Of a stretch of DNA of 40,929 bases, positions 1 through 40,688 are shown one piece after another. The translations under genes were made by a program, and so were the position numbers. How positions within the stretch are numbered: the stretch's first letter is position 1; the number at the start of each line of letters is the position of its first letter. The stretch lies in IMG/VR virus record IMGVR_UViG_3300025133_000256, positions 1-40,929 of that record. One strand, given 5' to 3'. The stretch comes from a virus. Below the pieces are notes generated by a model. That model was not told the origin of the DNA and ran no database searches. It saw only the letters and a program-made list of their open reading frames with translations.

Positions 1-146
1 GTATCCTTTCACCGAAAGGGTATTCCTTTCAGGGACTTACACGGGCTTTACGCACAATCACCATGTCGCCGTGACTTTAAGGTCTTGTACGCACCTAGGA
101 TTGTAGTCCCACGCACCTACGTCTACAACCGTAGGTAACCCGATGC
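1..146. repeat. Direct terminal repeat, left copy
   Basis: The first 146 bases recur at the right end of the window with one substitution (G at 20, A at the matching position 40803), leaving 126 exactly identical bases. This is what a circular or terminally redundant phage genome looks like after assembly. The left end contains a small hairpin, CCTTTC-ACC-GAAAGG; the differing base lies in its stem, and the right-hand copy pairs perfectly for nine base pairs. No coding gene lies in the repeat. Whether it is a true packaged terminal repeat or an assembly overlap cannot be decided from sequence alone. Confidence 0.85.
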
Positions 147-156
147 CACGCACCTA
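88..156. repeat. Three copies of a CACGCACCTA-like 10-mer
   Basis: TACGCACCTA (88-97), CACGCACCTA (110-119) and CACGCACCTA (147-156) lie in the gene-free stretch before the first leftward genes. A related CACGCACCT occurs at 36882-36890 in another intergenic region. The second copy overlaps a hairpin, ACCTACG/CGTAGGT, at 115-136. Repeated short sites in an intergenic region suggest protein-binding sites, but no function is shown. Apart from these repeats and the hairpin, I see nothing else in 147-218. Confidence 0.45.
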
Positions 157-218
157 TACAGATGCCGCTTGCAGCCTAAAGCCTATTTACCCTCGCTGCA
201 ACGAGCCAAAACTCAACT

Positions 219-790: not shown

Positions 791-885
791 GGGCGGGAGT
801 CGAAGACTCCCGCCCCGCACCACAGCGGGGGAGTCGAAGACTCCCCCGCCGCAGACGCTACGCCGTAGCCAGTCCCAAGGACTGG
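791..885. repeat. Hairpins 1-4 of the palindrome array
   Basis: Four consecutive perfect palindromes: 791-815 (arms GGGCGGGAGTC/GACTCCCGCCC, loop GAA), 825-849 (GCGGGGGAGTC/GACTCCCCCGC, loop GAA), 857-869 (GCTACG/CGTAGC, one-base loop) and 869-885 (CCAGTCC/GGACTGG, loop CAA). The third covers the stop codon of the leftward gene 858-1328, so the array runs from that gene's 3' flank into its coding region. The first two share the inner arm GGGAGTC. They may end the leftward transcript, but no T-run follows. Confidence 0.85.
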
Positions 886-1328
886 GCCTTGCTGACGATG
901 CGGTCCACAGTACCTTGCCAAGCAAGGTTCCCTTGCTTGTCAAGGTGCGTCGGGACCAACTCCATCGCTTCCCGAAGGGAAGCGAGTACCTTGTCGACAT
1001 CTCCGATGTCACTCGCCTTCGTCGCATTGGCTAGTCTGGCGTTAATGCTAGCATTAACGGCCTTGTTCTTCGCTGACTTGGCTGCTTTCTCCAACTTCCA
1101 AGCCGAAGGCTTGGAAGTCTTGGCAACAACTGGAGCCGAAGGCTCCACTACGTTTGAGGGAACCTCAAACGTTGGGATCGACGGTGCCGAAGGCACCGTA
1201 GCGACAACCGACGGTTCCGAAGGAACCGTGACCGTGCCGTCGGCATCGAAGATGCCGCTTTCCACGATCTGTTCGGCAAGCCGAACAATAGCCGAAGCCG
1301 AGGCTTCGGTGATGGTCAGGGTCTTCAT
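858..1328 (-). CDS. Hypothetical protein built around in-frame palindromes, 156 aa
   Basis: The ATG at 1328 is preceded by AAGGAGG with six-base spacing, a strong start. The N-terminal about 35 residues are helical (MKTLTITEASASAIVRLAEQ). Residues 36-75 are a Pro/Ser/Val linker with repeated VPSEPS, VPSAPS and VEPSAP peptides. The C-terminal half is helical and basic-to-neutral (KLEKAAKSAKNKAVNAS). No family is recognised. At least a dozen perfect DNA palindromes lie inside the gene; where the loop reads TTC on the coding strand within CCTTCGG, the same frame yields Pro-Ser, which creates the PSAP/PSEP repeats. Its ribosome site is buried in a long hairpin just upstream, so translation is probably controlled by RNA folding. 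Presumably an early protein. Confidence 0.75.
   Translation of the reverse strand: MKTLTITEASASAIVRLAEQIVESGIFDADGTVTVPSEPSVVATVPSAPSIPTFEVPSNVVEPSAPVVAKTSKPSAWKLEKAAKSAKNKAVNASINARLANATKASDIGDVDKVLASLREAMELVPTHLDKQGNLAWQGTVDRIVSKAQSLGLATA
912..1309. repeat. Hairpins 5-17 of the array, inside a coding gene
   Basis: Thirteen palindromes: 912-928, 931-945, 966-984 (CGCTTCCC-GAA-GGGAAGCG), 996-1010, 1041-1058 (loopless GTTAATGCTAGCATTAAC), 1094-1118 (11-bp arms, loop GAA), 1131-1147, 1150-1172, 1181-1199, 1211-1229, 1241-1257, 1271-1286 and 1292-1309. Seven have an exact GAA loop on the plus strand. The stems differ in sequence, so this is conservation of form, not of sequence. The density is far above chance. 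Confidence 0.9.
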
Positions 1329-1333
1329 ATTTC

Positions 1334-1392
1334 CTCCTTGGGGTATCTTCTTATCATCACCCTAAAGGGTGATGAGAAGATACCCCAAGGAG
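1334..1392 (-). promoter_or_regulatory. Hairpin sequestering the ribosome site of the 858-1328 gene
   Basis: On the leftward RNA, CTCCTTGGGGTATCTTC pairs with GAAGATACCCCAAGGAG, and the stem continues to CATCACCC/GGGTGATG around a small loop with a three-base bulge. The 3' arm contains the AAGGAGG that serves the ATG at 1328. The start would be inaccessible unless the hairpin is opened, for example by a ribosome, a protein or incomplete transcription. It is also the eighteenth hairpin of the array. Confidence 0.75.
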
Positions 1393-1395
1393 ATA

Positions 1396-1689
1396 TATTG
1401 GTTTCCCCCCATTTTCCCTTCAGGAAAATGGGGGGAAACCAATAAAATCTGGTTGCTTTACTCAACCTGAAGGTTGAGTAAAGCAACCAACCAAATTGCC
1501 AACCGTTGTTCTCATAACCCTAAAGGGTTATGAGAACAACGACAAAGCCACCAACCACTCTCTCCAACCAATCGTAGATTGGTTGGAGAGAGTGCCAAAC
1601 TGGTTGCTTTACTCAACGTAGTTGAGTAAAGCAACCAACCAAACCAGACTCCAATCAACCGCTTACAACTACGTTGTAAGCGGTGATTG
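1396..1689. repeat. Hairpins 19-24, long-armed section of the array (no gene)
   Basis: Six long hairpins: 1396-1444 (22-bp stem, CTTCA loop), 1450-1489 (19 bp), 1504-1541 (18 bp, AA loop), 1556-1594 (18 bp, GTA loop), 1601-1637 (17 bp, GTA loop) and 1652-1689 (12 bp perfect, loop TAC, with an extra CAATC/GATTG pair beyond a bulge). The arms of 1450-1489 and 1601-1637 share TGGTTGCTTTACTCAAC exactly but have different loop regions. Spacers are 5-15 bases. I see no credible gene in this stretch; open frames here only read across the palindromes. Confidence 0.9.
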
Positions 1690-1716
1690 CCAGAAGCCAG
1701 CCAGCCTCGCGTACGT

Positions 1717-1939
1717 ACACCAACCAAGGGTTGGTGTTGATTCCAGCCGTCCGAACGTAGTTCGGTACCAATTTAACATTCTCAACTACGTTGAGACTTC
1801 GATTCGGCCTGTTTCCCGTACTAAACCAGAGGTTTAGTAACTAGTTCAAGCACCTATGGTGCTTGCTGCTGCTGCTGACCGTCGGACGCCGTTGCAGTGG
1901 CAACGGCGAGGGTGCCGTACCCCCCCTTGGGGGGTACGG
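1717..1939. repeat. Hairpins 25-31, short-armed section of the array (no gene)
   Basis: Palindromes at 1717-1737 (ACACCAACC/GGTTGGTGT), 1751-1765 (CCGAAC-GTA-GTTCGG), 1780-1796 (TCTCAAC-TAC-GTTGAGA), 1819-1839 (TACTAAACC-AGA-GGTTTAGTA), 1847-1865 (CAAGCACC-TAT-GGTGCTTG), 1887-1908 (CGCCGTTGC/GCAACGGCG) and 1915-1939 (CCGTACCCCCC/GGGGGGTACGG). Loops are three or four bases. No ribosome site plus frame combination suggests a gene here. Confidence 0.85.
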
Positions 1940-1983
1940 GGCGCGCGCCTGCATATGTATAGATATGGAGGGGCAGATTGGGC

Positions 1984-2009
1984 AAAAAAAGAACCCCCTG
2001 TGGGGGTTC
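1984..2009 (-). terminator. Rho-independent terminator read leftward
   Basis: On the leftward strand the stem GAACCCCC-ACA-GGGGGTTC is followed directly by seven T residues, the textbook intrinsic-terminator form. No leftward gene lies immediately to its right (the late genes there run rightward), so it probably stops antisense or leftward read-through before the array and the 858-1328 gene. Read rightward it is only a hairpin preceded by A7. Confidence 0.65.
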
Positions 2010-2034
2010 GTGCGCCTGTACGCGATATTGGTGA

Positions 2035-2090
2035 TTTACTCAGTACCATTCCCCAACGCTGAAGGCGTTGGGGAATGTTTACTCAGTACC
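2035..2090 (+). promoter_or_regulatory. Hairpin flanked by two TTTACTCAGTACC repeats
   Basis: TTTACTCAGTACC occurs at 2035-2047 and 2078-2090, and between them is a hairpin with arms CATTCCCCAACGC/GCGTTGGGGAATG (2047-2077). The same 13-mer lies in transcription orientation 14 bases ahead of the leftward Cas4-like gene (34887-34899), again beside a hairpin. This placement ahead of both gene blocks suggests a binding site for a phage regulator or a promoter element. No canonical -35/-10 pair is evident. Confidence 0.55.
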
Positions 2091-4062: not shown

Positions 4063-4280
4063 ATGGCGGGAATATAGCCAAGATCATCGGTGCAGTTGCT
4101 GCTCTTGTTGCTGCTGTCGGCGGTTTTTTGGTAGCCGTTGGGGATTCGGATTCCCAACAGGCTCCTGCTGTTATCATCATTAGGGGTTCTACGTTACCTG
4201 AGGATGATCTGACGGATTCCGAGAAGGACAGGGAGTGGGTGTTCAATGAGTCGCTTAGGGGAACTGAGGCAGGAGGCTGA
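4053..4280 (+). CDS. Small membrane-anchored protein, 75 aa
   Basis: The GTG start at 4053 lies inside the previous stop region. Residues 9-29 (AKIIGAVAALVAAVGGFLVA) form a clear transmembrane segment, followed by a polar acidic tail (DDLTDSEKDREWVF). It overlaps the terminase ATPase gene by 35 bases. A single-span protein with a short N-terminus could be a holin-like or spanin-like protein, but it lies far from the endolysin gene, so lysis is uncertain. No family is recognised. Confidence 0.55.
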   Translation: MSVDGGNIAKIIGAVAALVAAVGGFLVAVGDSDSQQAPAVIIIRGSTLPEDDLTDSEKDREWVFNESLRGTEAGG

Positions 4281-5133
4281 GTGGCGTAGGTGTCAGCGTA
4301 GCGAGGTTCATTTTTTAGAGAATTACTGGTATATTGCGCATCCTGCGCATGGCCGTATTTTGTTTAAGTTGCGGGGGGCGCAGTCGGAGGCGTTGAAGCG
4401 GTGGGATAACAACCGTTATTCGTTGACGTTGAAGGCTCGTCAGATTGGGTGGACGACGTTGGTGTCTGCTCATCAGTTTTGGTTGGCGTTTTTTCACGAC
4501 GATCAGAATGTGATTGATTTGTCGCGTACGGAGCGGGAGTCGATTCTGTTGTTGCGTAAAACCAAGTATGGGTTTAAGCATTTGCCGATGTGGATGATTG
4601 AGCGGGGTCCGCAGTCGTTGATGGATCATCAGCAACGTATGGGGTTCAGCAACGGTTCTCAGATTACGTCGATGCCTTCGGCATCTGACCCTGCGCGTGG
4701 TGAGTCTGCTACGTTGGTGGTTGTGGATGAGTGGGCGTTCCTGCCGAACCCTGAGGAGGCGTGGGCGTCTATTGAGCCTGTTGCCGATGTGGGTGGCCGC
4801 ATTATTGGGCTGTCTACTGCTAACGGGTCGGGAAACTTTTTTCATCAGTTGTGGGTGGGGGCGTCTACGGGGAACAATCAGTTTGATCCAATGTTTTTTC
4901 CGTGGTCTGCTTCCGAGGATAGGGATGAGTCTTGGTATGAAGGTAAGAAGAGTTCGATGTTGCCGTGGCAACTCGCACAGGAGTATCCGACGAGTGCCGA
5001 GGACGCATTTGTTCGTTCTGGCAACCCTGTATTCGATATTGACGTTCTTAATGATATGCGTGTGCATGTTCGACAGGGTGTGGACGGCTATCTCCATGAA
5101 ACGTCCAAAAACGTTTTGGAGTTCCGATGTTGA
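4246..5133 (+). CDS. terL: Large terminase, ATPase subunit (split TerL), 295 aa
   Basis: Motor ATPase that drives DNA into the procapsid. ARQIGWTT at residues 64-71 is the terminase-type Walker A variant (usually ..G-K-T; here Trp replaces Lys, as in some lineages with an upstream Arg). VVVDEW at 158-163 is Walker B with catalytic Glu162, and GLSTANGSGNFF at 188-199 is the coupling motif III. The protein stops at the point where a normal TerL continues into its nuclease domain. Its TGA overlaps the ATG of the next gene (ATGTTGA), which encodes that nuclease. AGGGAG lies ahead of the start. Confidence 0.88.
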   Translation: MSRLGELRQEAEWRRCQRSEVHFLENYWYIAHPAHGRILFKLRGAQSEALKRWDNNRYSLTLKARQIGWTTLVSAHQFWLAFFHDDQNVIDLSRTERESILLLRKTKYGFKHLPMWMIERGPQSLMDHQQRMGFSNGSQITSMPSASDPARGESATLVVVDEWAFLPNPEEAWASIEPVADVGGRIIGLSTANGSGNFFHQLWVGASTGNNQFDPMFFPWSASEDRDESWYEGKKSSMLPWQLAQEYPTSAEDAFVRSGNPVFDIDVLNDMRVHVRQGVDGYLHETSKNVLEFRC

Positions 5134-5792
5134 CGGTGTGGGAGCAGCCTGAGCGTTGGTCGGGGTACGTTTTGGGTGTCGATACTGCTGAGGGGTTGGG
5201 GCATGGCGACTACTCATGTATTCAGGTTATTGACGCGAAGAAGGGGGAACAGGTCGCTATTTGGCATGGACGTATCCCGCCTGATGAGTTGGCTACTGAG
5301 GTGTACCGTTTGGGTTTGTGGTACGGGAACGCTCTTTGCTGCGTTGAGGCCAACAACCACGGTTTGACCACGATTACGGTGTTGCGCCAGTTGGGGTATC
5401 CGAACCTGTACCGTCGGCGGGCGTTGAATACGTCTTCGCAACGTATTTCGCAGGAGTACGGGTGGAAGACGACACGTACATCGAAGCCGTTGATGATTGA
5501 TGATTTGGGTAAGGCTTTGAAAAACGATGAACTGATTTTGCATTGCGATTCTACGATTGCGGAGTTGCGTACGTTTGTACGCAACGACCGTGGATCAATG
5601 TCTGGTTCGCCGTATGATGATCGGGTGATGGCGTTAGCGGTGGCGAATCAGATGCGCAAGTTTGCGTATGTACCCGAGTTTGTACAGCATGTGGATGATA
5701 CGTGGACGTTTGATTGGTGGATGAGGCAGATCCCGTCAGGGGTTGCAACGGATGATACAATCGGCACTTACCTGTCGCGTGGGACAGCGTAA
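5127..5792 (+). CDS. Large terminase, nuclease subunit (split TerL), 221 aa
   Basis: RNase-H-fold nuclease of the large terminase, which cuts the concatemer at the start and end of packaging. LGVDTAEG (Asp19), VEANNHG (Glu74) and PYDDRVMALA (Asp164/165) supply the expected metal-binding acidic triad. The reading frame differs from the ATPase gene and overlaps it by seven bases, so the two domains are made as separate chains or joined by a rare frameshift. No intron or homing endonuclease lies between them. The C-terminus (DDTWTFDWWM) is aromatic and acidic. Confidence 0.87.
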   Translation: MLTVWEQPERWSGYVLGVDTAEGLGHGDYSCIQVIDAKKGEQVAIWHGRIPPDELATEVYRLGLWYGNALCCVEANNHGLTTITVLRQLGYPNLYRRRALNTSSQRISQEYGWKTTRTSKPLMIDDLGKALKNDELILHCDSTIAELRTFVRNDRGSMSGSPYDDRVMALAVANQMRKFAYVPEFVQHVDDTWTFDWWMRQIPSGVATDDTIGTYLSRGTA

Positions 5793-19067: not shown

Positions 19068-22000
19068 ATGGCGCGTCCCGTAACACCTAAAGAGGATTTT
19101 CGTCCTCGCGCTGCGGCAGCGGTTAAAAATATTAACCCACGGATGCCCAAGCGGGAAACCATGTCCATTGAGCCTCCGCCTCAAAGTGATTTACTTAAGG
19201 CTTTAGGGGTTGAACTTTCGGCTGATCCAGCCTCCTATTACAGCGGGGCTGGTTCTACTACGTGGACTCCTGCTGCGCCGATGCAAGAGTGGCGGCAGCA
19301 GCACGCGCACGACACTATGGTTGCCAACTTGGATTGGCAGGGGAAACTCGCCTACGATGTCGGGAGCGCGATGACGGAGGGTCCGTTTGCCACTGCGTTA
19401 GAGTATTTGTTGAAGCCTCTAACTGTTGCGGTTACGGGTACTCGTTTGCTTGTGGAGAATGTTCTCAGGAAGCGTCCCGAAGAGGGTGGTCTGAGTTGGG
19501 GGGATGCTTGGGACAAGATTGGGGGCACCTATACGTTTGGTGAGATGCTTGCCGATTACGACATTTGGCAGGAACCTGAGAATTTGAAGTGGGCACGGAT
19601 GGCTGGCTTTGCGGGTGATGTTGCGCTTGATCCGTTGACTTGGCTTGGCTTGGTTGGTAAGGCAATCGGTATCGGGGCTAAATTGACGGGCGAAGGTGCC
19701 CGTGTTATCAGTGGTCACGCTGTCCGTAATGCGATTATAGCCCATGTAGGCGATGATGCTGGCAAGGTGTTCGGTGGTATATTCCGAAACACTAGATTGT
19801 TGGATGATAATGTCATGCGTGGGGTTGCTGACGATCTTGTAAAGGGAACCGATAACTTTGTTACGCGGGTTTCTGATGATGTCGTTGAGTTGGATTTGAA
19901 CAAGTTGGGTGGTGTTGTGGGTCCGACCGATCCGCTTGATACTTCACTCATTATGACATTAGATAATGCTTTGATTGATGATATTACGAAATTGTATGAT
20001 GCGGGTGCCCGTGCAATTCGGCGGGGAGCGACTGCGGTCACCGACGACGAAATGCGTATCGCAGCCCGCCATATTGCCGCTAGCCAGTTGGACAACTCGC
20101 TGCGCTCACCGTCGCAGATAGCGACTCGCGCCGTTGACGATGTAACAGCAGGTACAACTAGGGGCTATACGAATCCGTGGATTGTTGCCGACGAGGTTGA
20201 AGACCTGACATTTGCATTTGGGTGGAGGGTTCCATTCACGGGTAGAGTCGGTAAGGCGATATTCCGCCACAAACTGCAACAGCCGATTGGGTTAAAGTTT
20301 TGGGGGTCTAACACGCGGGCACCGTTTATTGGTACGTGGGTACGTGGTGTGCCACAGGCTGCCCGTACTGTCTTCTTTGGTCGCAACATTATTGGCAAAG
20401 GCCCAGTTGCCAAGGCTGCCCAAATGGCTGGCAAAGCAACACAGGAGAAGGTCGGAACGGGTTACGGTGGGCTGATTGGTTGGATGAAGCGTGGTGGTCG
20501 CGCTCCTGAAATACGCCAGTTGATGAAGACGGCAATGCAGGAGGGTGACGCTGTAGGCGTTCATCACATGAAAGCGTTTTTGCACGCTGCTGGACGGGGC
20601 GACATGGCGGGGCGCGTCGTACGGCAGGAAATGTTGAGGAAGGTGGATGCCTTTTTCAAGGAAGCCGATGTGGCGGGTGCCAATAGTGCTGATTTGTACC
20701 ATGCCATCGCGGGCAGCGAGGACGCTGCCGCGAGGGTTGGTCAAGAGTTGACGGACAAGGGGCGCTTGTTGATGCGAGATTTGCGTCAGTCGGCTAACGA
20801 ACATGGGGGGCAAAACTTCCTCGGTCATTCTTCCGATTACGTTCCTCGCGTTTTGTCCGAAGAGGCACGTACCTATTTGGAGGCCAAAGGTAGGGGGCTT
20901 GTCAACAGGTCACACAAAGGCCATGCATATAAAGAGAGTGGCTTTGAACAGACACGCTCGTACATTTCTAAAGAAGAATTTGATTTCTTGGTTGATGCAC
21001 AGGTCGCCAAGGGTGCGTCACCTGCTGAAGCAGACGCAGCCGTGCGTGCGTCAGGGCGCCAGCACGACTTCTTAGGGGAAGACTTGTATAAGGCGGGTTC
21101 GGAGATGCCCAGCGGTGAGATCGCTCAAGACGTTGAGAAGCAGATCGCTGACATCATGGAGCGACATGCAATCTCCTACTCTCTGTTTGACGAAGACCTG
21201 CGGGTGGCCCTCAGCGCGTACGTTGACGCGATTTCCAAGCGTGTGGGTGAGGTATTCACTGACACGCTAATGAAGAAGCAGGGCATCTTCTTTGACCGTA
21301 CGGCAATGGCCGTTCACATCCCTGACCTCAGAATGACTGATGCTGTCATGGATGTTCGTTCAGCAGCGTCCACGCTGCTTCGTGCTGAGACAGACTTGGA
21401 TCACAAGTTGAAGGTAGCGATAGAACGCTTTGGTAAAGATCAGGCTGATGCAGCGGACTCGGTAGTGGAGGCCAGAGAGACACTGCGAGTGGCTGACGAA
21501 TCGTACAAGCGGGCTGTAGAAGCACATGACGTAAAGGCGCAAGAGTTCCTGTTGCTTGAACAGGAGGTTATGTTTATTGAGAAGCGGATTCTTGATCTTG
21601 AGGGTAGGGAGCGGGGGCTGCGTGTAGACATGGAGGGCGCTCCGTTTGAGCGCCTTGTGGAGATGGAGCGTGAGGTTCAGGAAATCGTCAAGGTGTTGGA
21701 TGATTTGTACAAGTCGAAGCCCATGTTTGAACTGGAGTTGTCAAGGTTGCGGGCGTCAACTTATGCAGTGTTGACTTTGGAAGACAAAATATACACTGTC
21801 TTTGGAGATCAGAAAACGTTTGAAAAGTTTGTTGGTGCGTTCGATGAGTACGTCGGGGGAAGCGTAGACGAGTATGCGATGGCGGCTGCGCGCGACGGGA
21901 AGAAGGGCTTCACACCTATCCGCGATACTGTTGCTCCAGCGGAGGCTGGCGTTGTTGATGAGGCTGGAAACGTCGTGTACCAGCAGGCTTCTGATGTTGT

Positions 22001-25000
22001 CGGGTGGGAGTTGAAGGTCGGGGACAGGGTTATCAACTCTGATGAAGCAACTCAGATGCTTGGAAACGTTGAAGCGATTATCGCGGACTTGGACGGTACT
22101 GGGTTGGCGAATTGGCTTGGCTTGGAAATGCACGTAAGGGCTAAGGACGCTACGGGGATTGCGTCGTCGCTGTCGCAGGTTGAGTCCGCTAGAACAATTT
22201 TGACCGATCAGGTGAAGAGGGCGGTTGAACGGTTGGAGAAGGGGATTCAGCACCTTGGCCCTGATGAACTGGTGGGGAGCATTCCTTCTCCGATGAATGT
22301 TACGGATTCAAAGAGGTTGATGCTTACCAAGTTGGACGAATTGTGGAAGCAGGCGAACGATCCAGCCAGCAATATGTTGTGGGATGACATATGGCCGACG
22401 GTGATGAAAGATCCTGAATTCGTAAATGCGGCTTCCACGTATTATGGCGTTTTCGGGGATTCGCGGGCGGTGACCACGATCCCCGACGGGTTGGCCCTTG
22501 ACCAGTACATAGAAACTGCGAAGATATCCTTGCGGGCGCGGGCGCAGCACTTGGAGACACAGTTGGCTGATGCGCCTGTGATTACGGCGACGACACCCGA
22601 AGGGTTGATCTATGAAAATTTGACCATCTCTGATGTCGTTTATATCATGCGGTTCCAAAACGAAATCATACGTGCCCCCCACGGTTCTCAGATGCCGTTT
22701 GCAACAGACAATATCCCCATCAGTAAATTGTTTGCTGATGGGGAGATTACTGGCGGTTGGCAGGGGAGCGGGGGAATGGCTTTTGCTGAAGATGCTGGTT
22801 CTGACTTGGGGGTGAAGGGCGGCTCCAACGAAGGGTACAAGATTAAATACACGTTGGCTGATGGAACCATTAAACGTTTCTACGTTAAAAAGTATGTAGA
22901 TGTTGCGGGATCATACCCTTCAGGGGCGACCGCTGATGCGGCACGCCACCGTGTAAGCGGCGAAGTTCTCGCTGATCGCCTCTACAACGAAATCGTTACT
23001 GGTAGTGCCCCTGCGAGTTGGTACGGTCAGGTGGATGAGGGCCAGTTTGCGGGTATATGGAAGGCCACCGATTGGGAAGACGAACTCGTTCAAGGCATAC
23101 ATGTGCCAATGACCCACCAGTATCGGGAGAAGATGGCGGACGGCACGTATCGTATCGTTCAAACGTACTCCGAACATCCTTACGGCGCAATATATGACGA
23201 TGTGCACGATTACATCACTCCTGAAACGCTTGACCTTACTGTGCATACGCCTATGTCTGACCTTGTTGGCGACCAGATGGCAACAGACATGCTCATTGGG
23301 AACCTTGATGCGGTCGGATTCGCAGGTGACAACATCGGTGTCAACAAGATGACGGGTGAAGTTTTTCGGTTGGACAACGGGTCAGCGTTCCACTATCGGG
23401 CACAAGGAGAACTTAAGGGCGGATCGTATGACTATAGGAACGTTGACGAAATCACAGGTTTCTTTGATTTAGCATTTGAGGGAAATCAGGCGAAGACTAT
23501 CAGCATGTGGCGGCAGTTTCGTTCTACATTCGATGACGTTGAAGGCGGGATCGGCATGGCGGCTGAGTTGTCTCGGCAAACTGATCGCCTGTTGGCTGCA
23601 CGTACCGCGAATGGGGGCTGGGCCAAGTGGGTGCGAAAGCAGTTGCCAGATGCCCCTGAAGAAGATATTCACATGTTTGTTGACTGGTTGGAAACACGCA
23701 CTCAGAAGATGGCTGAGCAATTCGGTTTGACGTACAACACGGGCGACGACATGATCGGGGAAGCCCTTGCACGGACGGGGGTTGGTCCCGCACAGATTGA
23801 TGAGGCGCTTACAGGCACTTATGGAGCGACGCAGCGAACGTCGGAGCGGTTGGGTTTGCGGGCGTGGCTTTCCCCCAAGGGTGGGATGAGTGGAGTACCT
23901 GAAAGTCAGGCGTTGGAATCGTTTACGATTACGGATGCAATTGACGAGTTGCTTCGCAACGCTGACAACGTTGGTTCGCAGGCCCGCGATGTAGAAGTTG
24001 TGAGGCATCTCTGGGATTTGCGGGAAAGCGGGATACTGCAACGCATGTTGGCATCCCGCCACGCTTTAGACATTGACGATCCTACCTTGATGCACGCGAT
24101 GTTCAGGAGCGAAATTGATGAGACAACGTTTGCGGCTGCGGAGGCAGGGCCAAAGCAGGCGAGCGATGTCGAAGACTGGATGGCGCAGTTGTCGGGAGAT
24201 GATCTGATAGAGGCGCAGATGTTGATGAAGGGGCAGGAGACTCCTGCTGGAACTGTTGATGAAGCGTTGCCGCCACTATCTCACCCATTTTGGAAAGACC
24301 CTGATGTTGCCGACACCGTTTCCCAATTTGGTAGGGACGCCGTTGAACCCGAAGACTATGCTTCGTGGAAAATTGCTGAGCAACAGCACGAAGTAGCATG
24401 GAACGTAGAAGCGGGCTATAAATCCGCGCCCGAAGCATCTGCCATACGGGCGACAGAGTTCTTGCCGAAGACAGCCGACGAGGTGCCGTGGGAGCAAGCG
24501 ACGAATCGTTACGGTGTTGTCATTATGGATGGCGTAGATTCTGTCTATTTGCGTATGCCCACTAACGATCCCCTTACAGGCCAGATCGACGGGGGTAATC
24601 GTTGGACGCATTCCTATGGAATGCAGACTCGTACCGCAGGTATGGCTGACGAGAACCCTATGCAGGTTGCTGTACGCGAGGCATATGAGCAAACGGGCCT
24701 TGATGTTGAACTTGTCGGGTTTGTCCCCGAGGTGTTTCATGGTGCTGAACAAACTCATTACTTTGTTGGACGGGTTAGGGCAGGAACCTCTTCGGGTCGT
24801 ACTGTTCCCACAAGCGACCCGCAGGTACACAACCAGTTGTTGAGGCTGAACCATGCATCAGGTCATGGTGGCTATTTCGCTCCGCATTGGCTTTTAGGTA
24901 CCAATAGTGCCAATTGGATAGATCAGTCTGCTCCCAATGCGAACATCATGGCAGTCGTGTACGACATGGTTTCCAGTAGGTACCAGCATCAATTCAGGGT

Positions 25001-28000
25001 CAACTTGCCGCATGGTGCGTCAAGTATCAAAGTGTACGGGCTTCCTGCACATGACCGTCTGCGTGCAGCGGAGGCTATTGTGAAGCAGGCCGACGGCCTT
25101 GATCCTAGAGTTCCTGAGCAGTTGACTAGGTTGCAAGGGCTTCAAGGCGAGATTGAGAATCTTCTTAGCGGAGAAGGGAACGCTGCTGGTCTTTTCGGAA
25201 CCGAGGGTCAATACAGTCACGCTACTACGGAACACGGTCAGTTCGACATGATGTTTGACATGTATGAACGTGTCCGCGATGTGGACCCTGACTTGTGGGA
25301 AGGGTTGTTGCACGATTGGCGTGCGGGTAGGGCTATCAACACGATTGAAGAAAATACTGCTGCCAGCCAAAAGATTAAGCAGGGGGCAAAGGTGGTTGAT
25401 ACGGTAACCGCGTTGGAGGCTCGCGGAGTTTTCCCTGAAGGCATGTCGTGGCGTCACAAGATGACGTTCATCGGGTGGCTTAACACGAACAGCGCATACG
25501 ATGGGAATATCAGGTCTGCGTTGCACGCAATGCATGACGGCGTTTCAGTACCTTTAGCGCAGAATCCGTTGCAGTCGCTAATCCTGACTGTGGAGGCGGC
25601 GGGTGGCAATCTGTCTCGCTACGAAATGTATACGAAGGGTTTGGATAACCTTGCCGCGCAACCCACCGCGCAACTTAAAGAGGATGTATTGACATTCATT
25701 GCTTCGATAAGCAACGATTCGTCAAAGGTTGGTTCAGGTTTCAGCAATCGGTTTGATGCGGAAGGCGCTCAGGTTCTTAATCCCTTCCTTGGACCCCAAG
25801 ATAGAACTGGAGGCCGTAATATTCTCGTCCAAATGGGCGAGTATGCGCATCAGTTTGGCGCGCAACATGCCCGTGAAACGGGTCCGATGGCGGCGAGGGC
25901 AACGTTCAAGCCAATTGACACAGTGCAGCAGTATGGGGGTCCGTTGTATACTGGGAGGACGAGGGGGTGGGCGACAGCGGAGACTCCTTCTCACGTTCCT
26001 CCTGATCCGACGGTACTGGGTGGCCCAACACCACGTTCGCCGTACGCGCAGGAACAGTTGAGGGCTGCTGTTCGTACGCACGCTCGTTTCTTGGAGGCGT
26101 ACAGGCGGTCGTTGTCTTCGGGCAGTTTGGCTAGTGACAACAACGGGTACGCTGTTTCTGTTTGGTTCAACCAAGAAAGTGCCCGTTGGAATACTGCTCA
26201 GGGCCACTCGGACAATCCTACGTTGGCTAATTTCATGTTGACAAATCCGCGCGCAATTATGCCTGACACCATACACACTGGTGGCCTCGTATCAGAATTG
26301 GATAAGTTCAGAGGGCAGACAGGTACGAGGGGCAGCGCGGAACATGATGTCTTTATGAATGCGGAACAGTTCCTGAAAGAATACGAGGAAATGGCGAACG
26401 CTCAGTTTGTGCCTCGTGAGTTTGACGAGGCACAACAGCCCGATTTGTTGGCAGCCTTGCAGCAAGAAAAGGCTGAAGTGTTGTTGGATCGGGACGCTGC
26501 CAACAAAGCACTTGTTCTGTCACGTTCAGAGTTGCAAACCGCACGTAACCAAGTAGATGCTCTCAAGAAACAACGCGACTGGGGAAGGGACCACTTCGAC
26601 CGCGCCGATGCTGCACTGGACTTGGCAGATGAGCGCGTCGCTCATGCGGTGAAAGCGCAGGAACAGTTGGAAGCGTTGCGGGTGAGTGCGGCGGCGACCC
26701 CTGACGACGAGTTGGCAGACATATTTAAAGATATAGCAGTAGCGGTGTCACACATACACATGGTTACCGTGAACCAAGTAGATCAGTCTATTAGCAACGC
26801 GCTGGCGTGGTCTATCCAAGGGCCAAAAACCGTCAAGGCAGGCGCAAGACCGTCTGATTACAAACATCAGGCTAGAATAATGGATGGCATTTTCGGGGAA
26901 GTAGGATTCCCACCTTCGGAGGTGTCAGAGGTGGGGAAAGATTTGCAGGCAGGTCTTGAAGGGATAGCAAAGATCCGAGCGGGGAAGGCTGAAGGACCGT
27001 TTGATACGTTCGTTTCTGACGACGAGTTCTGGTTCCCGCTCCGCGACTTCGCAGACCGCGAAGAAGTCCTAGAGCAACTATGGATGTCAGGGTACAAAGC
27101 CTTCGGGTCTAACTCGCAAGGACCAGAAGCAATGGTCGAAGCCATGACTGCCGTGACACGCTTCAATGCGCAGGGCGGATGGGGTGAATTCCTACGCCAC
27201 TATGACAAGGTGCACAACCTGCTTAAAGGCTACATGATTGCCAAGCCCGGTTTCCATATGCGTAACTTCTTTTCTGCAACGTTTATGAATTTCTTGCATG
27301 GTGTGAAGTTCAGTAGTTATCGTCAGTTTCAGCGTGCGTATTGGAAGTTCCAGCATGACCTTGCGGTTGAGCAGGGGATGACTCGTAGGGCTGATTCGAT
27401 GAAGGCTTCGATGAAGAAGCGTGGCATTTGGAATAATGTCAATGCTGACGATGTTGCGATTGTACGCGAGATGTATGAGGGTAACATTCTAGGTGGTTCC
27501 AGTGGTCAGGTTGCGGCAGAGTTTCTACAGTCTCCGTTGGAGCAAGGCGGGTTTCGTCGTGCGTGGGGTACGGTCAATCCGTTCAATTCGCGGAACGCTC
27601 CGTTGCGACTGTCGCGCAACGTCGGTGTTGGAACTGAAACCTATGTACGCGGCGTGTTGGGATTCGATGTCTTGAAGCATAGCAACGGCACCGTTGACGA
27701 TGCTTTCGATGCGATTACGAAGTGGCACTTCGACTATAGTGACCTGTCGGCCTTTGAGTCCAAGGTCATCAAGCGTCTTGTTCCGTTCTATACGTGGACG
27801 AAGCACGCGCTACCGTTGATGATTGAGCAGGTTGGGAAGAACCCTGCGAAGATGTCGATGTATTTGAAGGCCAAGCGCAACATTGAGCATGGACAGGAAA
27901 AGGCGGGGATTGTGCCTCCGTACTTTCTGCGACAGGGTGCCATTCAGTTGCCGTTCAAGTTCAAGGGTGAGAACATGTTTGTTCTGCCTGACTTGCCGTT

Positions 28001-28529
28001 CAAGACTCCGTTGGAGTTGATTGATCCTGCGTTGGCGCTTGACAAGGACATGTCGGTTACGGATCGTATTCAGGTCATGTTGGGTAGTGTGGGTACTCAG
28101 ATTACACCGTTGATTAAGGCACCGTATGAGTGGAAAGCCAAGCAAAATTTGTGGAAGGGTTACAACTTTGATGGTCGGTATCAGCAGGTGCCCACTGCGT
28201 ATCGAAACATTCCGTTGTTGATGCCGATGTTGGATGCCCTTGGGTTGGCTGAGAAACAAAACGATGTTTGGTTGATGCGTGATTATGAACTGCATACGAT
28301 GGGGCAGTTGTTGCCTACGTTCACGGACATGCGGCGGCTGTTTCCGTCGGAGGAAAGGTACCAGCAGCGCACGCTGTCTACGTGGATGAGTTTCGCATTC
28401 GGTATGGGTTTGCGCACTAATACTTTGGAGGAACAACGGCGTGTGATAGAGTCTGCGTACTGGCAGCAAGTGGAAAAAATGGGGGACATGCGTCAGTTGC
28501 TGCAAGAAAGCCAAAACGAAAACCCGTAG
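19068..28529 (+). CDS. Giant polyvalent virion protein, 3153 aa
   Basis: One gene occupies almost a quarter of the genome. Visible parts: residues about 180-195, AGFAGDVALDPLTWLG; coiled coil about 775-885; a kinase-fold-like segment about 1215-1445, with a Gly-rich loop and FYVKKY, catalytic-loop-like LIGNLDAVGFAGDN (near 1409) and metal-site-like RLDNGSAF (near 1434), resembling HipA/FAM20-type kinases; FWKDPDVAD near 1741, shared with the 371-residue protein at 2850; a Nudix-like segment about 1815-1990 with REAYEQTGL near 1870 (first box Glu missing); a second coiled coil about 2460-2543; and a C-terminal region with MIAKPGFHMRNFFSATFMNF and LVPFYTWTKHALPL. Such large multidomain proteins are probably packaged and ejected. 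Domain calls are by motif only. Confidence 0.7.
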   Translation: MARPVTPKEDFRPRAAAAVKNINPRMPKRETMSIEPPPQSDLLKALGVELSADPASYYSGAGSTTWTPAAPMQEWRQQHAHDTMVANLDWQGKLAYDVGSAMTEGPFATALEYLLKPLTVAVTGTRLLVENVLRKRPEEGGLSWGDAWDKIGGTYTFGEMLADYDIWQEPENLKWARMAGFAGDVALDPLTWLGLVGKAIGIGAKLTGEGARVISGHAVRNAIIAHVGDDAGKVFGGIFRNTRLLDDNVMRGVADDLVKGTDNFVTRVSDDVVELDLNKLGGVVGPTDPLDTSLIMTLDNALIDDITKLYDAGARAIRRGATAVTDDEMRIAARHIAASQLDNSLRSPSQIATRAVDDVTAGTTRGYTNPWIVADEVEDLTFAFGWRVPFTGRVGKAIFRHKLQQPIGLKFWGSNTRAPFIGTWVRGVPQAARTVFFGRNIIGKGPVAKAAQMAGKATQEKVGTGYGGLIGWMKRGGRAPEIRQLMKTAMQEGDAVGVHHMKAFLHAAGRGDMAGRVVRQEMLRKVDAFFKEADVAGANSADLYHAIAGSEDAAARVGQELTDKGRLLMRDLRQSANEHGGQNFLGHSSDYVPRVLSEEARTYLEAKGRGLVNRSHKGHAYKESGFEQTRSYISKEEFDFLVDAQVAKGASPAEADAAVRASGRQHDFLGEDLYKAGSEMPSGEIAQDVEKQIADIMERHAISYSLFDEDLRVALSAYVDAISKRVGEVFTDTLMKKQGIFFDRTAMAVHIPDLRMTDAVMDVRSAASTLLRAETDLDHKLKVAIERFGKDQADAADSVVEARETLRVADESYKRAVEAHDVKAQEFLLLEQEVMFIEKRILDLEGRERGLRVDMEGAPFERLVEMEREVQEIVKVLDDLYKSKPMFELELSRLRASTYAVLTLEDKIYTVFGDQKTFEKFVGAFDEYVGGSVDEYAMAAARDGKKGFTPIRDTVAPAEAGVVDEAGNVVYQQASDVVGWELKVGDRVINSDEATQMLGNVEAIIADLDGTGLANWLGLEMHVRAKDATGIASSLSQVESARTILTDQVKRAVERLEKGIQHLGPDELVGSIPSPMNVTDSKRLMLTKLDELWKQANDPASNMLWDDIWPTVMKDPEFVNAASTYYGVFGDSRAVTTIPDGLALDQYIETAKISLRARAQHLETQLADAPVITATTPEGLIYENLTISDVVYIMRFQNEIIRAPHGSQMPFATDNIPISKLFADGEITGGWQGSGGMAFAEDAGSDLGVKGGSNEGYKIKYTLADGTIKRFYVKKYVDVAGSYPSGATADAARHRVSGEVLADRLYNEIVTGSAPASWYGQVDEGQFAGIWKATDWEDELVQGIHVPMTHQYREKMADGTYRIVQTYSEHPYGAIYDDVHDYITPETLDLTVHTPMSDLVGDQMATDMLIGNLDAVGFAGDNIGVNKMTGEVFRLDNGSAFHYRAQGELKGGSYDYRNVDEITGFFDLAFEGNQAKTISMWRQFRSTFDDVEGGIGMAAELSRQTDRLLAARTANGGWAKWVRKQLPDAPEEDIHMFVDWLETRTQKMAEQFGLTYNTGDDMIGEALARTGVGPAQIDEALTGTYGATQRTSERLGLRAWLSPKGGMSGVPESQALESFTITDAIDELLRNADNVGSQARDVEVVRHLWDLRESGILQRMLASRHALDIDDPTLMHAMFRSEIDETTFAAAEAGPKQASDVEDWMAQLSGDDLIEAQMLMKGQETPAGTVDEALPPLSHPFWKDPDVADTVSQFGRDAVEPEDYASWKIAEQQHEVAWNVEAGYKSAPEASAIRATEFLPKTADEVPWEQATNRYGVVIMDGVDSVYLRMPTNDPLTGQIDGGNRWTHSYGMQTRTAGMADENPMQVAVREAYEQTGLDVELVGFVPEVFHGAEQTHYFVGRVRAGTSSGRTVPTSDPQVHNQLLRLNHASGHGGYFAPHWLLGTNSANWIDQSAPNANIMAVVYDMVSSRYQHQFRVNLPHGASSIKVYGLPAHDRLRAAEAIVKQADGLDPRVPEQLTRLQGLQGEIENLLSGEGNAAGLFGTEGQYSHATTEHGQFDMMFDMYERVRDVDPDLWEGLLHDWRAGRAINTIEENTAASQKIKQGAKVVDTVTALEARGVFPEGMSWRHKMTFIGWLNTNSAYDGNIRSALHAMHDGVSVPLAQNPLQSLILTVEAAGGNLSRYEMYTKGLDNLAAQPTAQLKEDVLTFIASISNDSSKVGSGFSNRFDAEGAQVLNPFLGPQDRTGGRNILVQMGEYAHQFGAQHARETGPMAARATFKPIDTVQQYGGPLYTGRTRGWATAETPSHVPPDPTVLGGPTPRSPYAQEQLRAAVRTHARFLEAYRRSLSSGSLASDNNGYAVSVWFNQESARWNTAQGHSDNPTLANFMLTNPRAIMPDTIHTGGLVSELDKFRGQTGTRGSAEHDVFMNAEQFLKEYEEMANAQFVPREFDEAQQPDLLAALQQEKAEVLLDRDAANKALVLSRSELQTARNQVDALKKQRDWGRDHFDRADAALDLADERVAHAVKAQEQLEALRVSAAATPDDELADIFKDIAVAVSHIHMVTVNQVDQSISNALAWSIQGPKTVKAGARPSDYKHQARIMDGIFGEVGFPPSEVSEVGKDLQAGLEGIAKIRAGKAEGPFDTFVSDDEFWFPLRDFADREEVLEQLWMSGYKAFGSNSQGPEAMVEAMTAVTRFNAQGGWGEFLRHYDKVHNLLKGYMIAKPGFHMRNFFSATFMNFLHGVKFSSYRQFQRAYWKFQHDLAVEQGMTRRADSMKASMKKRGIWNNVNADDVAIVREMYEGNILGGSSGQVAAEFLQSPLEQGGFRRAWGTVNPFNSRNAPLRLSRNVGVGTETYVRGVLGFDVLKHSNGTVDDAFDAITKWHFDYSDLSAFESKVIKRLVPFYTWTKHALPLMIEQVGKNPAKMSMYLKAKRNIEHGQEKAGIVPPYFLRQGAIQLPFKFKGENMFVLPDLPFKTPLELIDPALALDKDMSVTDRIQVMLGSVGTQITPLIKAPYEWKAKQNLWKGYNFDGRYQQVPTAYRNIPLLMPMLDALGLAEKQNDVWLMRDYELHTMGQLLPTFTDMRRLFPSEERYQQRTLSTWMSFAFGMGLRTNTLEEQRRVIESAYWQQVEKMGDMRQLLQESQNENP

Positions 28530-39941: not shown

Positions 39942-39981
39942 CCCATCTTCTCTCTCTCAAAAGAGAGAGAGAGAAGATGGG
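39942..39981 (-). terminator. (CT)n hairpin, second copy
   Basis: The stem CCCATCTTC-(CT)n with (GA)n-GAAGATGGG and an AAAA loop begins 15 bases past the stop of the gene at 39996. Its core is identical to the hairpin at 219-258, and the sequences just before both hairpins are also similar, so the two are copies of one element. Probable terminator or mRNA 3' element of the upstream gene. Confidence 0.6.
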
Positions 39982-40512: not shown

Positions 40513-40582
40513 ACACGGGGCGGGAATCGAACCCGCAAACGCAACACACTGCGCATCCTCAGCCCCATCTAGCGACCCGTGT
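40513..40582 (-). tRNA. Degenerate tRNA-like element
   Basis: A perfect 7-bp acceptor (ACACGGG/CCCGTGT) and a perfect T arm (GCGGG-TTCGATT-CCCGC) are present. The inner part is abnormal: only 39 bases between acceptor and T arm, no D stem, and an anticodon-like GCGCA/TGCGT stem with a six-base GTGTGT loop. No CCA is encoded; T follows the acceptor. It could be a decayed tRNA, a tRNA-like regulatory RNA or a tRNA with an unusual core. I do not assign an amino acid. Confidence 0.5.
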
Positions 40583-40605: not shown

Positions 40606-40688
40606 TGGTGGAGGTGAGGGGAATCGAACCCCTGTCCGCAAGCGTCCGACATGCGGCTTTCACTTGCGTCGAAACCATAGCCACCCCC
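40606..40688 (-). ncRNA. Miniature tmRNA-like RNA (tRNA-like domain only), 83 nt
   Basis: Read leftward, GGGGGTG pairs with CACCTCC, giving an acceptor stem with a G3-U70 wobble, then A73 and an encoded CCA. GGTTTCGAC follows the 5' strand at the position of the universal tmRNA signature, there is no D stem, and AGGGG-TTCGATT-CCCCT is the T arm. CGCAAGTG/CGCTTGCG forms the P2 helix, closed by a 16-base loop with a small CCG/CGG stem. In ordinary tmRNA that site holds several hundred bases with pseudoknots and the tag reading frame; here they are absent. By the G3-U70 rule it could be charged with alanine. Confidence 0.75.

Follow-up and report, generated by a model that had tools for sequence, protein, structure and literature searches.

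Organization of the leftward unit

The window, that is, the whole stretch of 40,929 nucleotides analysed here (IMG/VR virus record IMGVR_UViG_3300025133_000256), looks like a complete circular phage genome, and its ends repeat over 146 nt. Near its left end lies a leftward unit that consists of a 625-nt leader without genes and a gene for a 156-aa protein (Table 1). The unit is headed by a promoter-like motif at 1954-1965, with a further conserved sequence, CGCACTG, ~8-15 nt upstream. Judged from its sequence, the motif is a putative leftward promoter, and the transcript is expected to start just to its left. Two hairpins beyond the motif, at 1991-2009 and 2047-2077, probably belong to the late side. 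Read leftward, the former is a hairpin followed by a T-run and could be regarded as terminator-like. The latter is part of a block (2035-2160) conserved in relatives, in which the TTTACTCAGTACC repeats flanking the hairpin are followed by a long-range inverted repeat, GTGTCCCA...TGGGACAC, that precedes a small-terminase-like gene.

Between positions 791 and 2077 we counted 31 non-overlapping perfect hairpins (stem of at least 6 bp, no mismatch, loop of 2-6 nt), compared with a mean of 1.5 and a maximum of 6 in 300 dinucleotide shuffles. Stems of at least 8 bp were observed 25 times (0.1 in shuffles) and stems of at least 10 bp 13 times (0 in shuffles). The hairpins cover 742 of the 1287 bases and follow each other at a median start-to-start distance of 41 nt; 22 of the 31 have a loop of three nucleotides, and stem length lies between 6 and 22 bp; a longer hairpin, at 1334-1392, contains mismatches. 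In the genome outside the array, hairpins occur at 2.9 per kb (stem of at least 6 bp) and 0.6 per kb (at least 8 bp). Within the 156-aa gene 13 coding hairpins were found, where permutation of synonymous codons gave 1.3. The palindrome array described in the first-pass annotation is hence real: its counts, spacing and loop sizes were essentially right, it does extend over both a coding gene and a stretch free of genes, and shuffling, named there as a check, did not give a similar density.

Apart from a stem shared by the hairpins at 1450-1489 and 1601-1637 and the relatedness of those at 791-815 and 825-849, nearly all stems differ. The array contains no family of near-identical direct repeats as in a CRISPR array, and only few of its hairpins are related to one another in sequence, unlike the conserved repeats of REP elements or iterons, in agreement with the original exclusion of all three. 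It is not a repeat family, and it coincides with one leftward transcription unit.

Table 1. Features of the leftward unit and its surroundings (window coordinates).
Feature	Position	Strand	Remarks
Second GC-rich hairpin past the stop	791-815	-	leftmost hairpin of the array
GC-rich hairpin 9 nt past the stop	825-849	-	gcgggggagtc-GAA-gactcccccgc
156-aa gene	858-1328	-	homologues in relatives
Coding hairpins (within 869-1309)	869-885, 919-939, 965-985, 996-1010, 1040-1059, 1094-1118, 1131-1147, 1150-1172, 1181-1199, 1211-1229, 1241-1257, 1270-1287, 1292-1309	-	
Hairpin with the gene's Shine-Dalgarno sequence in its stem	1334-1392	-	inner perfect part 1354-1375; arms co-change in L164 and L165
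Leader hairpins (within 1395-1908)	1396-1444, 1450-1489, 1504-1541, 1556-1594, 1601-1637, 1658-1684, 1717-1737, 1751-1765, 1780-1796, 1819-1839, 1847-1865, 1887-1908	-	
First hairpin beside the motif	1915-1939		ccgtacccccc-CTT-ggggggtacgg; GC hairpin here in most relatives, array present or not
Promoter-like motif (putative)	1954-1965	-	TATCTATACATA (reverse complement TATGTATAGATA); exact or one-mismatch copy in ~45 of 59 relatives, beside the GC hairpin
Hairpin beside an A-run	1991-2009		outside the unit; conserved in L013, L164 and L165
Late-side hairpin between direct repeats TTTACTCAGTACC	2047-2077		outside the unit; conserved in relatives

The array in related phages

Terminase searches yielded several hundred related contigs, the relatives being metagenomic fragments, and comparisons were made within a set of 59 non-redundant genomes (window included) whose upstream sequence exceeded 2 kb. 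About 20 of the 59 carry at least five hairpins (stem of at least 8 bp) within 1 kb at the array locus, for which shuffles gave ~0.2. In 14 genomes the density of hairpins with stems of at least 7 bp was 16.4 per kb in the leader and 19.3 in the coding part, and it was 14.9 in the 120 nt that directly follow the stop codon. Outside, the value was 4.5 on the upstream side of the motif and 3.7 beyond those 120 nt. All 14 genomes tested have a hairpin at a distance of 6-15 nt behind the stop codon. L013 shares ~87% of its flanking nucleotides with the window, yet its leader stems are wholly different; the position of the array is conserved while the stems are replaced wholesale. The array is thus conserved in position and largely confined to the unit, whose limits are the promoter-like motif and a point shortly after the stop codon.

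Some relatives deviate from this arrangement. In L043 and L047 the hairpins extend past the first gene into the next one, some genomes have the array gene with few hairpins, and in some units with an array no homologue of the gene was detected. Six phages (L020, L041, L061, L070, L073 and L120) contain two homologues of the array gene, of which mostly only one has coding hairpins; in L020 and L120 neither copy has many. Masking of the Shine-Dalgarno sequence by a hairpin is not general among the relatives.

Among named phages no nucleotide relatives were found; the one nearest in terminase and capsid, MW202803, has neither the motif nor the array. A related terminase was seen in only two MAG contigs, with conflicting labels (Acidimicrobiaceae and Euryarchaeota).

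Evolution of stems and loops

Nearly every hairpin recurs in L164 and L165; no other close relatives were found with the array gene itself. The comparison shows joint changes of both arms, for example from ACGGTTCC-GAA-GGAACCGT to ACGGTGCC-GAA-GGCACCGT, or from TTTACTC to TTTGCTC with the opposite arm changing likewise, as well as flipped loops (GTA to TAC, TAAA to TTTA) and hairpins that were inserted or replaced whole. The leader hairpins between 1395 and 1908 were kept, jointly changed, loop-inverted or swapped as whole units. L059 and L061 presented the same picture. Across 16 genome pairs, which share ancestors and were compared in both directions, so that neither these counts nor those of the loop inversions are independent, 103 stem pairs had changed to another Watson-Crick pair and 91 on one side only. 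Paired changes make up 53% of the changed stem pairs (69% in the window trio), compared with 8.9% for chance-complementary pairs in linkers. Exact inversions account for 33 of the 128 changed loops in these comparisons, with 20 of 25 among loops of two nucleotides and 13 of 93 among loops of three.

The stems also change more slowly than their surroundings. Third codon positions of the gene differed at 4/71, 1/66 and 5/70 sites in stems, while the respective values for linkers were 18/73, 20/71 and 14/69. In the shared part of the leader, differences amounted to 3.5-10.5% in stems, 15-23% in linkers and 50-61% in loops.

Template switching is known to homogenise the arms of inverted repeats and to invert their spacers (PMC8604942, PMC8794818), and the level of transcription influences it (PMC8604942). 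Both footprints, an excess of paired arm changes and the inversion of loops in place, are found here and constitute a signature of template switching between arms during DNA replication, through which the perfect stems persist. Unbiased homogenisation of arms would not by itself slow the stems; as they are slow, broken pairing must be selected against. The array shows the compensatory changes of a conserved structured RNA, and since pairing is kept by matched mutations while the sequences differ, folding itself appears to be under selection. Pairing is selected at the level of the nucleic acid, including in the coding part. These comparisons (L164, L165, L059, L061 and the 16 genome pairs) bear out the proposal that hairpin shape and not sequence is conserved, with stems maintained in relatives by compensatory change. 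The suggestion of a relic of template-switch repair held in one part: the switching is evident from co-changing arms and loops inverted in place, but the array is more than a relic, as its stems evolve several times more slowly than the linkers, third codon positions included.

Which molecule folds

Perfect stems kept by matched mutations without a conserved sequence normally mark functional RNA. The array departs from this norm in that it runs through a protein gene, shuns wobble, flips its loops and has loops of DNA type; it only half-fits a structured RNA. Stems with a single mismatch in the units comprised 6 A-C mismatches on the plus strand (equivalent to G-U on the minus strand), 7 G-T and 25 others. 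G-U pairs on the transcribed strand, which a structured RNA tolerates, were accordingly not favoured, and an asymmetry in an initial count (7 G-T versus 12 A-C), which would have indicated strand-specific RNA selection, was not seen in the units (7 versus 6). C-T mismatches were more frequent than T-C (14 versus 0 in the initial count, 9 versus 2 in the units), several of them being homologous. Paired changes were divided into 40 transitions and 20 transversions, with no excess over the background outside the array (roughly 2:1 to 3:1). RNA folding gave z values that ranged from approximately -3 to -5.7 across the main units of the array and lay near 0 in control coding sequence; both strands scored equally, and folding was therefore dropped as a means to distinguish RNA from the plus strand.

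The loops are more distinctive. Counting either strand, GNA or TNC makes up 108 of the 173 three-nucleotide array loops, in 88 cases with a C-G closing pair; the respective numbers among 36 control hairpins were 5 and 3 (Fisher 8e-7 for 88/173 versus 3/36). The C-G-closed form is that of N4-type promoters, where hairpin extrusion needs a 5' G and a 3' A in the loop and a C-G closing pair (PMC4496689). The RNA-type tetraloops GNRA and UUCG are absent from the array loops, and no motif common to all loops or all stems was found. Rfam gave no match above the gathering score inside the array; sub-threshold miRNA and sRNA matches were of the generic long-hairpin kind and were rejected.

Taken by themselves, the missing wobble preference, the equivalence of the strands and the C-GNA-G loops point to DNA. 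The boundaries of the unit, the hairpin masking the Shine-Dalgarno sequence and the weakly bS20-like fold of the product point to RNA.

The encoded protein

The long N-terminal half of the 156-aa product is basic, of low complexity and disordered, and the C-terminal part forms a three-helix domain (AlphaFold pLDDT of 92). The best 14 PDB fold matches of this domain are all ribosome entries, mostly of chain T or t, at Foldseek E values of at least 0.16. From chain letters and sizes we take this chain to be bS20, as is the convention. Alignment with hhalign to 31 bS20 sequences gave a probability of 26%, with less than 1% for the best of 20 column-shuffled decoys, and a profile score of 23.3 compared with 13.3 for the best decoy, over a gapless match of 40 residues. 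None of 24 homologues of the array gene matched Pfam S20 at E values up to 0.1. The modelled domain may thus weakly resemble bS20, below significance. Any likeness to bS20 would lie in the basic three-helix domain, the best fold matches and the profile match; the product differs in the disordered N-terminal half, the missing Pfam S20 match and a similarity that is not significant.

Possible roles of the array

Our best guess, with a probability of about 0.43, is a hairpin-armoured early transcript whose stems template switching keeps perfect. This phage family would have saturated the first of its leftward early units with local hairpins, foldability being the selected trait. The working form would mainly be the transcript, a leader and mRNA whose armour would leave nucleases few single-stranded entry points. 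In the lineage of the window the transcript may also keep its own Shine-Dalgarno sequence paired; the small basic protein would thus be made from a long-lived and metered message, and template switching in the DNA would keep the stems without wobble or mismatch. More speculatively, the 156-aa protein might bind the array hairpins.

This reading is consistent with the concentration of hairpins in leader and coding part, the constraint on third codon positions in stems but not in linkers, the paired changes and inverted two-nucleotide loops, the RNA folding scores, the joint arm changes of the Shine-Dalgarno-masking hairpin, and the ribosomal fold matches and profile score of the product. A leader RNA had been among the roles proposed in the first-pass annotation, and that idea gains support because the array matches the leftward transcription unit; the interpretation as a whole is partly supported. 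Evidence to the contrary is that wobble is not favoured, paired changes show no excess of transitions, both strands fold equally well, and the loops follow a DNA-type grammar. Moreover, masking of the Shine-Dalgarno sequence is not shared by the relatives in general, the bS20 resemblance stays below significance, gene and hairpins do not always occur together, and the hairpins overrun the first gene in L043 and L047.

In the main rival reading the DNA itself folds: the duplex or a displaced single strand would form hairpins or cruciforms where the early unit starts, beside the switch between the divergent early and late genes. Such a foldback array could be a supercoil sink or a structural landing platform for the initiation of replication or transcription, and only Watson-Crick pairing and stable DNA loops would matter. 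The C-G-closed GNA/TNC loops, the lack of a strand preference and of wobble tolerance, and paired changes without an excess of transitions argue for it, and the phage encodes an archaeo-eukaryotic-type primase and a DnaB-like helicase. A role in DNA does not predict, however, that the array ends where the transcription unit ends, and primase and helicase are also encoded by array-poor relatives and relatives without the array, for which reason we rejected them as an explanation of its presence. The GC-skew switch at ~2 kb coincides with the change in transcription direction and is therefore no independent mark of an origin; confounded in this way, it was set aside as origin evidence. DNA-type loops and missing wobble can also stem from template switching, itself a DNA process. 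We regard a DNA foldback array as somewhat unlikely. A sequence-free structural code is doubtful as well, and we rate it as rather unlikely: the whole unit, coding part included, would be selected as a chain of extrudable DNA hairpins with strict C-GNA-G and T-NN-A loops; template switching would renew the hairpins continually, and replication or transcription would use them as a platform in cruciform or single-stranded form. As the DNA-type features may themselves come from template switching, the transcript reading is slightly ahead.

Template switching could also act with little function behind it, in a heavily transcribed or fork-stalling stretch where tolerated palindromes are made and perfected. 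Such a mutational hotspot would be expected to leave joint arm changes and inverted loops as its footprints, the effect of transcription level on template switching fits (PMC8604942), and the leader loops are the fastest-changing part. The slow leader stems, the similarly restrained third codon positions and a position that is conserved despite wholesale stem replacement speak against it; already weakened by the stem constraint, a pure hotspot is improbable. Still more improbable is a decoy or binding scaffold for an RNA- or DNA-binding protein of the host or the phage, such as an RNase III-like nuclease, an immune sensor or the encoded bS20-like protein. It would agree with the conservation of shape and not sequence and with a product that has a basic three-helix domain of weak bS20 resemblance, but the hairpins have no stem or loop motif in common, and arrays occur without a detectable gene homologue and the gene without arrays.

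Comparison with known systems

In plastid genomes, the loops of small hairpins flip between relatives and the stems stay perfect. The array shares both properties; the plastid hairpins are isolated, whereas the array runs through a coding gene. Sponge RNAs of the CsrB/RsmZ type carry many serial hairpins per transcript with a shared GGA loop motif. The array likewise has serial hairpins; it differs from them in lacking a motif shared by all hairpins and in belonging to a coding unit. Inverted repeats maintained by template switching in yeast genes (PMC8604942) and RNA genes (PMC8794818) are like the array in their co-changing arms, perfect stems and inverted short spacers, but are scattered single events, while here a single phage unit contains ~30 hairpins whose stems are several-fold more conserved than the linkers. 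In cluster K mycobacteriophages, the extended start-associated sequences are likewise inverted repeats upstream of early genes near starts; each site has one repeat of conserved sequence that overlaps the promoter, in contrast to unconserved sequences filling a whole unit (PMC11373665).

The early promoter hairpins of phage N4 also have short stems and a three-nucleotide GNA-type loop with a C-G closing pair (PMC4496689). They are few and contain conserved bases for the virion RNA polymerase; ~30 hairpins with sequence-free stems are unlike such a promoter set. Although the loops would fit, we also regard N4-like virion RNA polymerase promoters as unlikely since searches of Pfam, PHROGs and PDB sequences with a 3153-aa ORF (19068-28529, plus strand) gave no match to a polymerase. 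This ORF belongs to no clear family, has a sub-threshold NUDIX match at 1860-1907 and, by its sequence, looks like a large injected multi-domain protein.

In the open-access literature we found no comparable phage hairpin array and no description of a unit saturated with sequence-unrelated perfect hairpins. If functional, the array would be a regulatory or structural device without a described counterpart that we could find. With hundreds of hairpins in many related genomes, it provides a dense natural data set with which template-switch mutation and selection on the folding of either RNA or DNA can be told apart, a matter not yet settled in research on the evolution of hairpins.

Other features of the genome

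The large terminase subunit (4246-5792, plus strand) is apparently split into two overlapping ORFs of 295 and 221 aa, of which the profile identified only the first. A mini-tmRNA at 40606-40688 (minus strand; Rfam RF00023, 76.7 bits) consists of the tRNA-like domain of tmRNA with a CCA end, the mRNA-like part and the pseudoknots being replaced by ~14 nt; a near-identical copy is found in L013 (2917-2999). Perhaps it is a decoy for trans-translation factors. A tRNA-like sequence at 40513-40582 (minus strand) matches tRNA-Sec weakly (20.5 bits) and was not called by ARAGORN. A Pistol self-cleaving ribozyme (144-206, minus strand; RF02679, 53.5 bits) lies between the mini-tmRNA and a hairpin at 219-258, which is comparable to those of the array but located outside it. 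This hairpin has a near-identical counterpart at 39942-39981, both with 17 bp and the loop AAAAGA and with one compensated pair different; they are 39.7 kb apart in window coordinates and 1.2 kb apart on the circle, and the one at 39942-39981 precedes the start of an early gene by ~40 nt.
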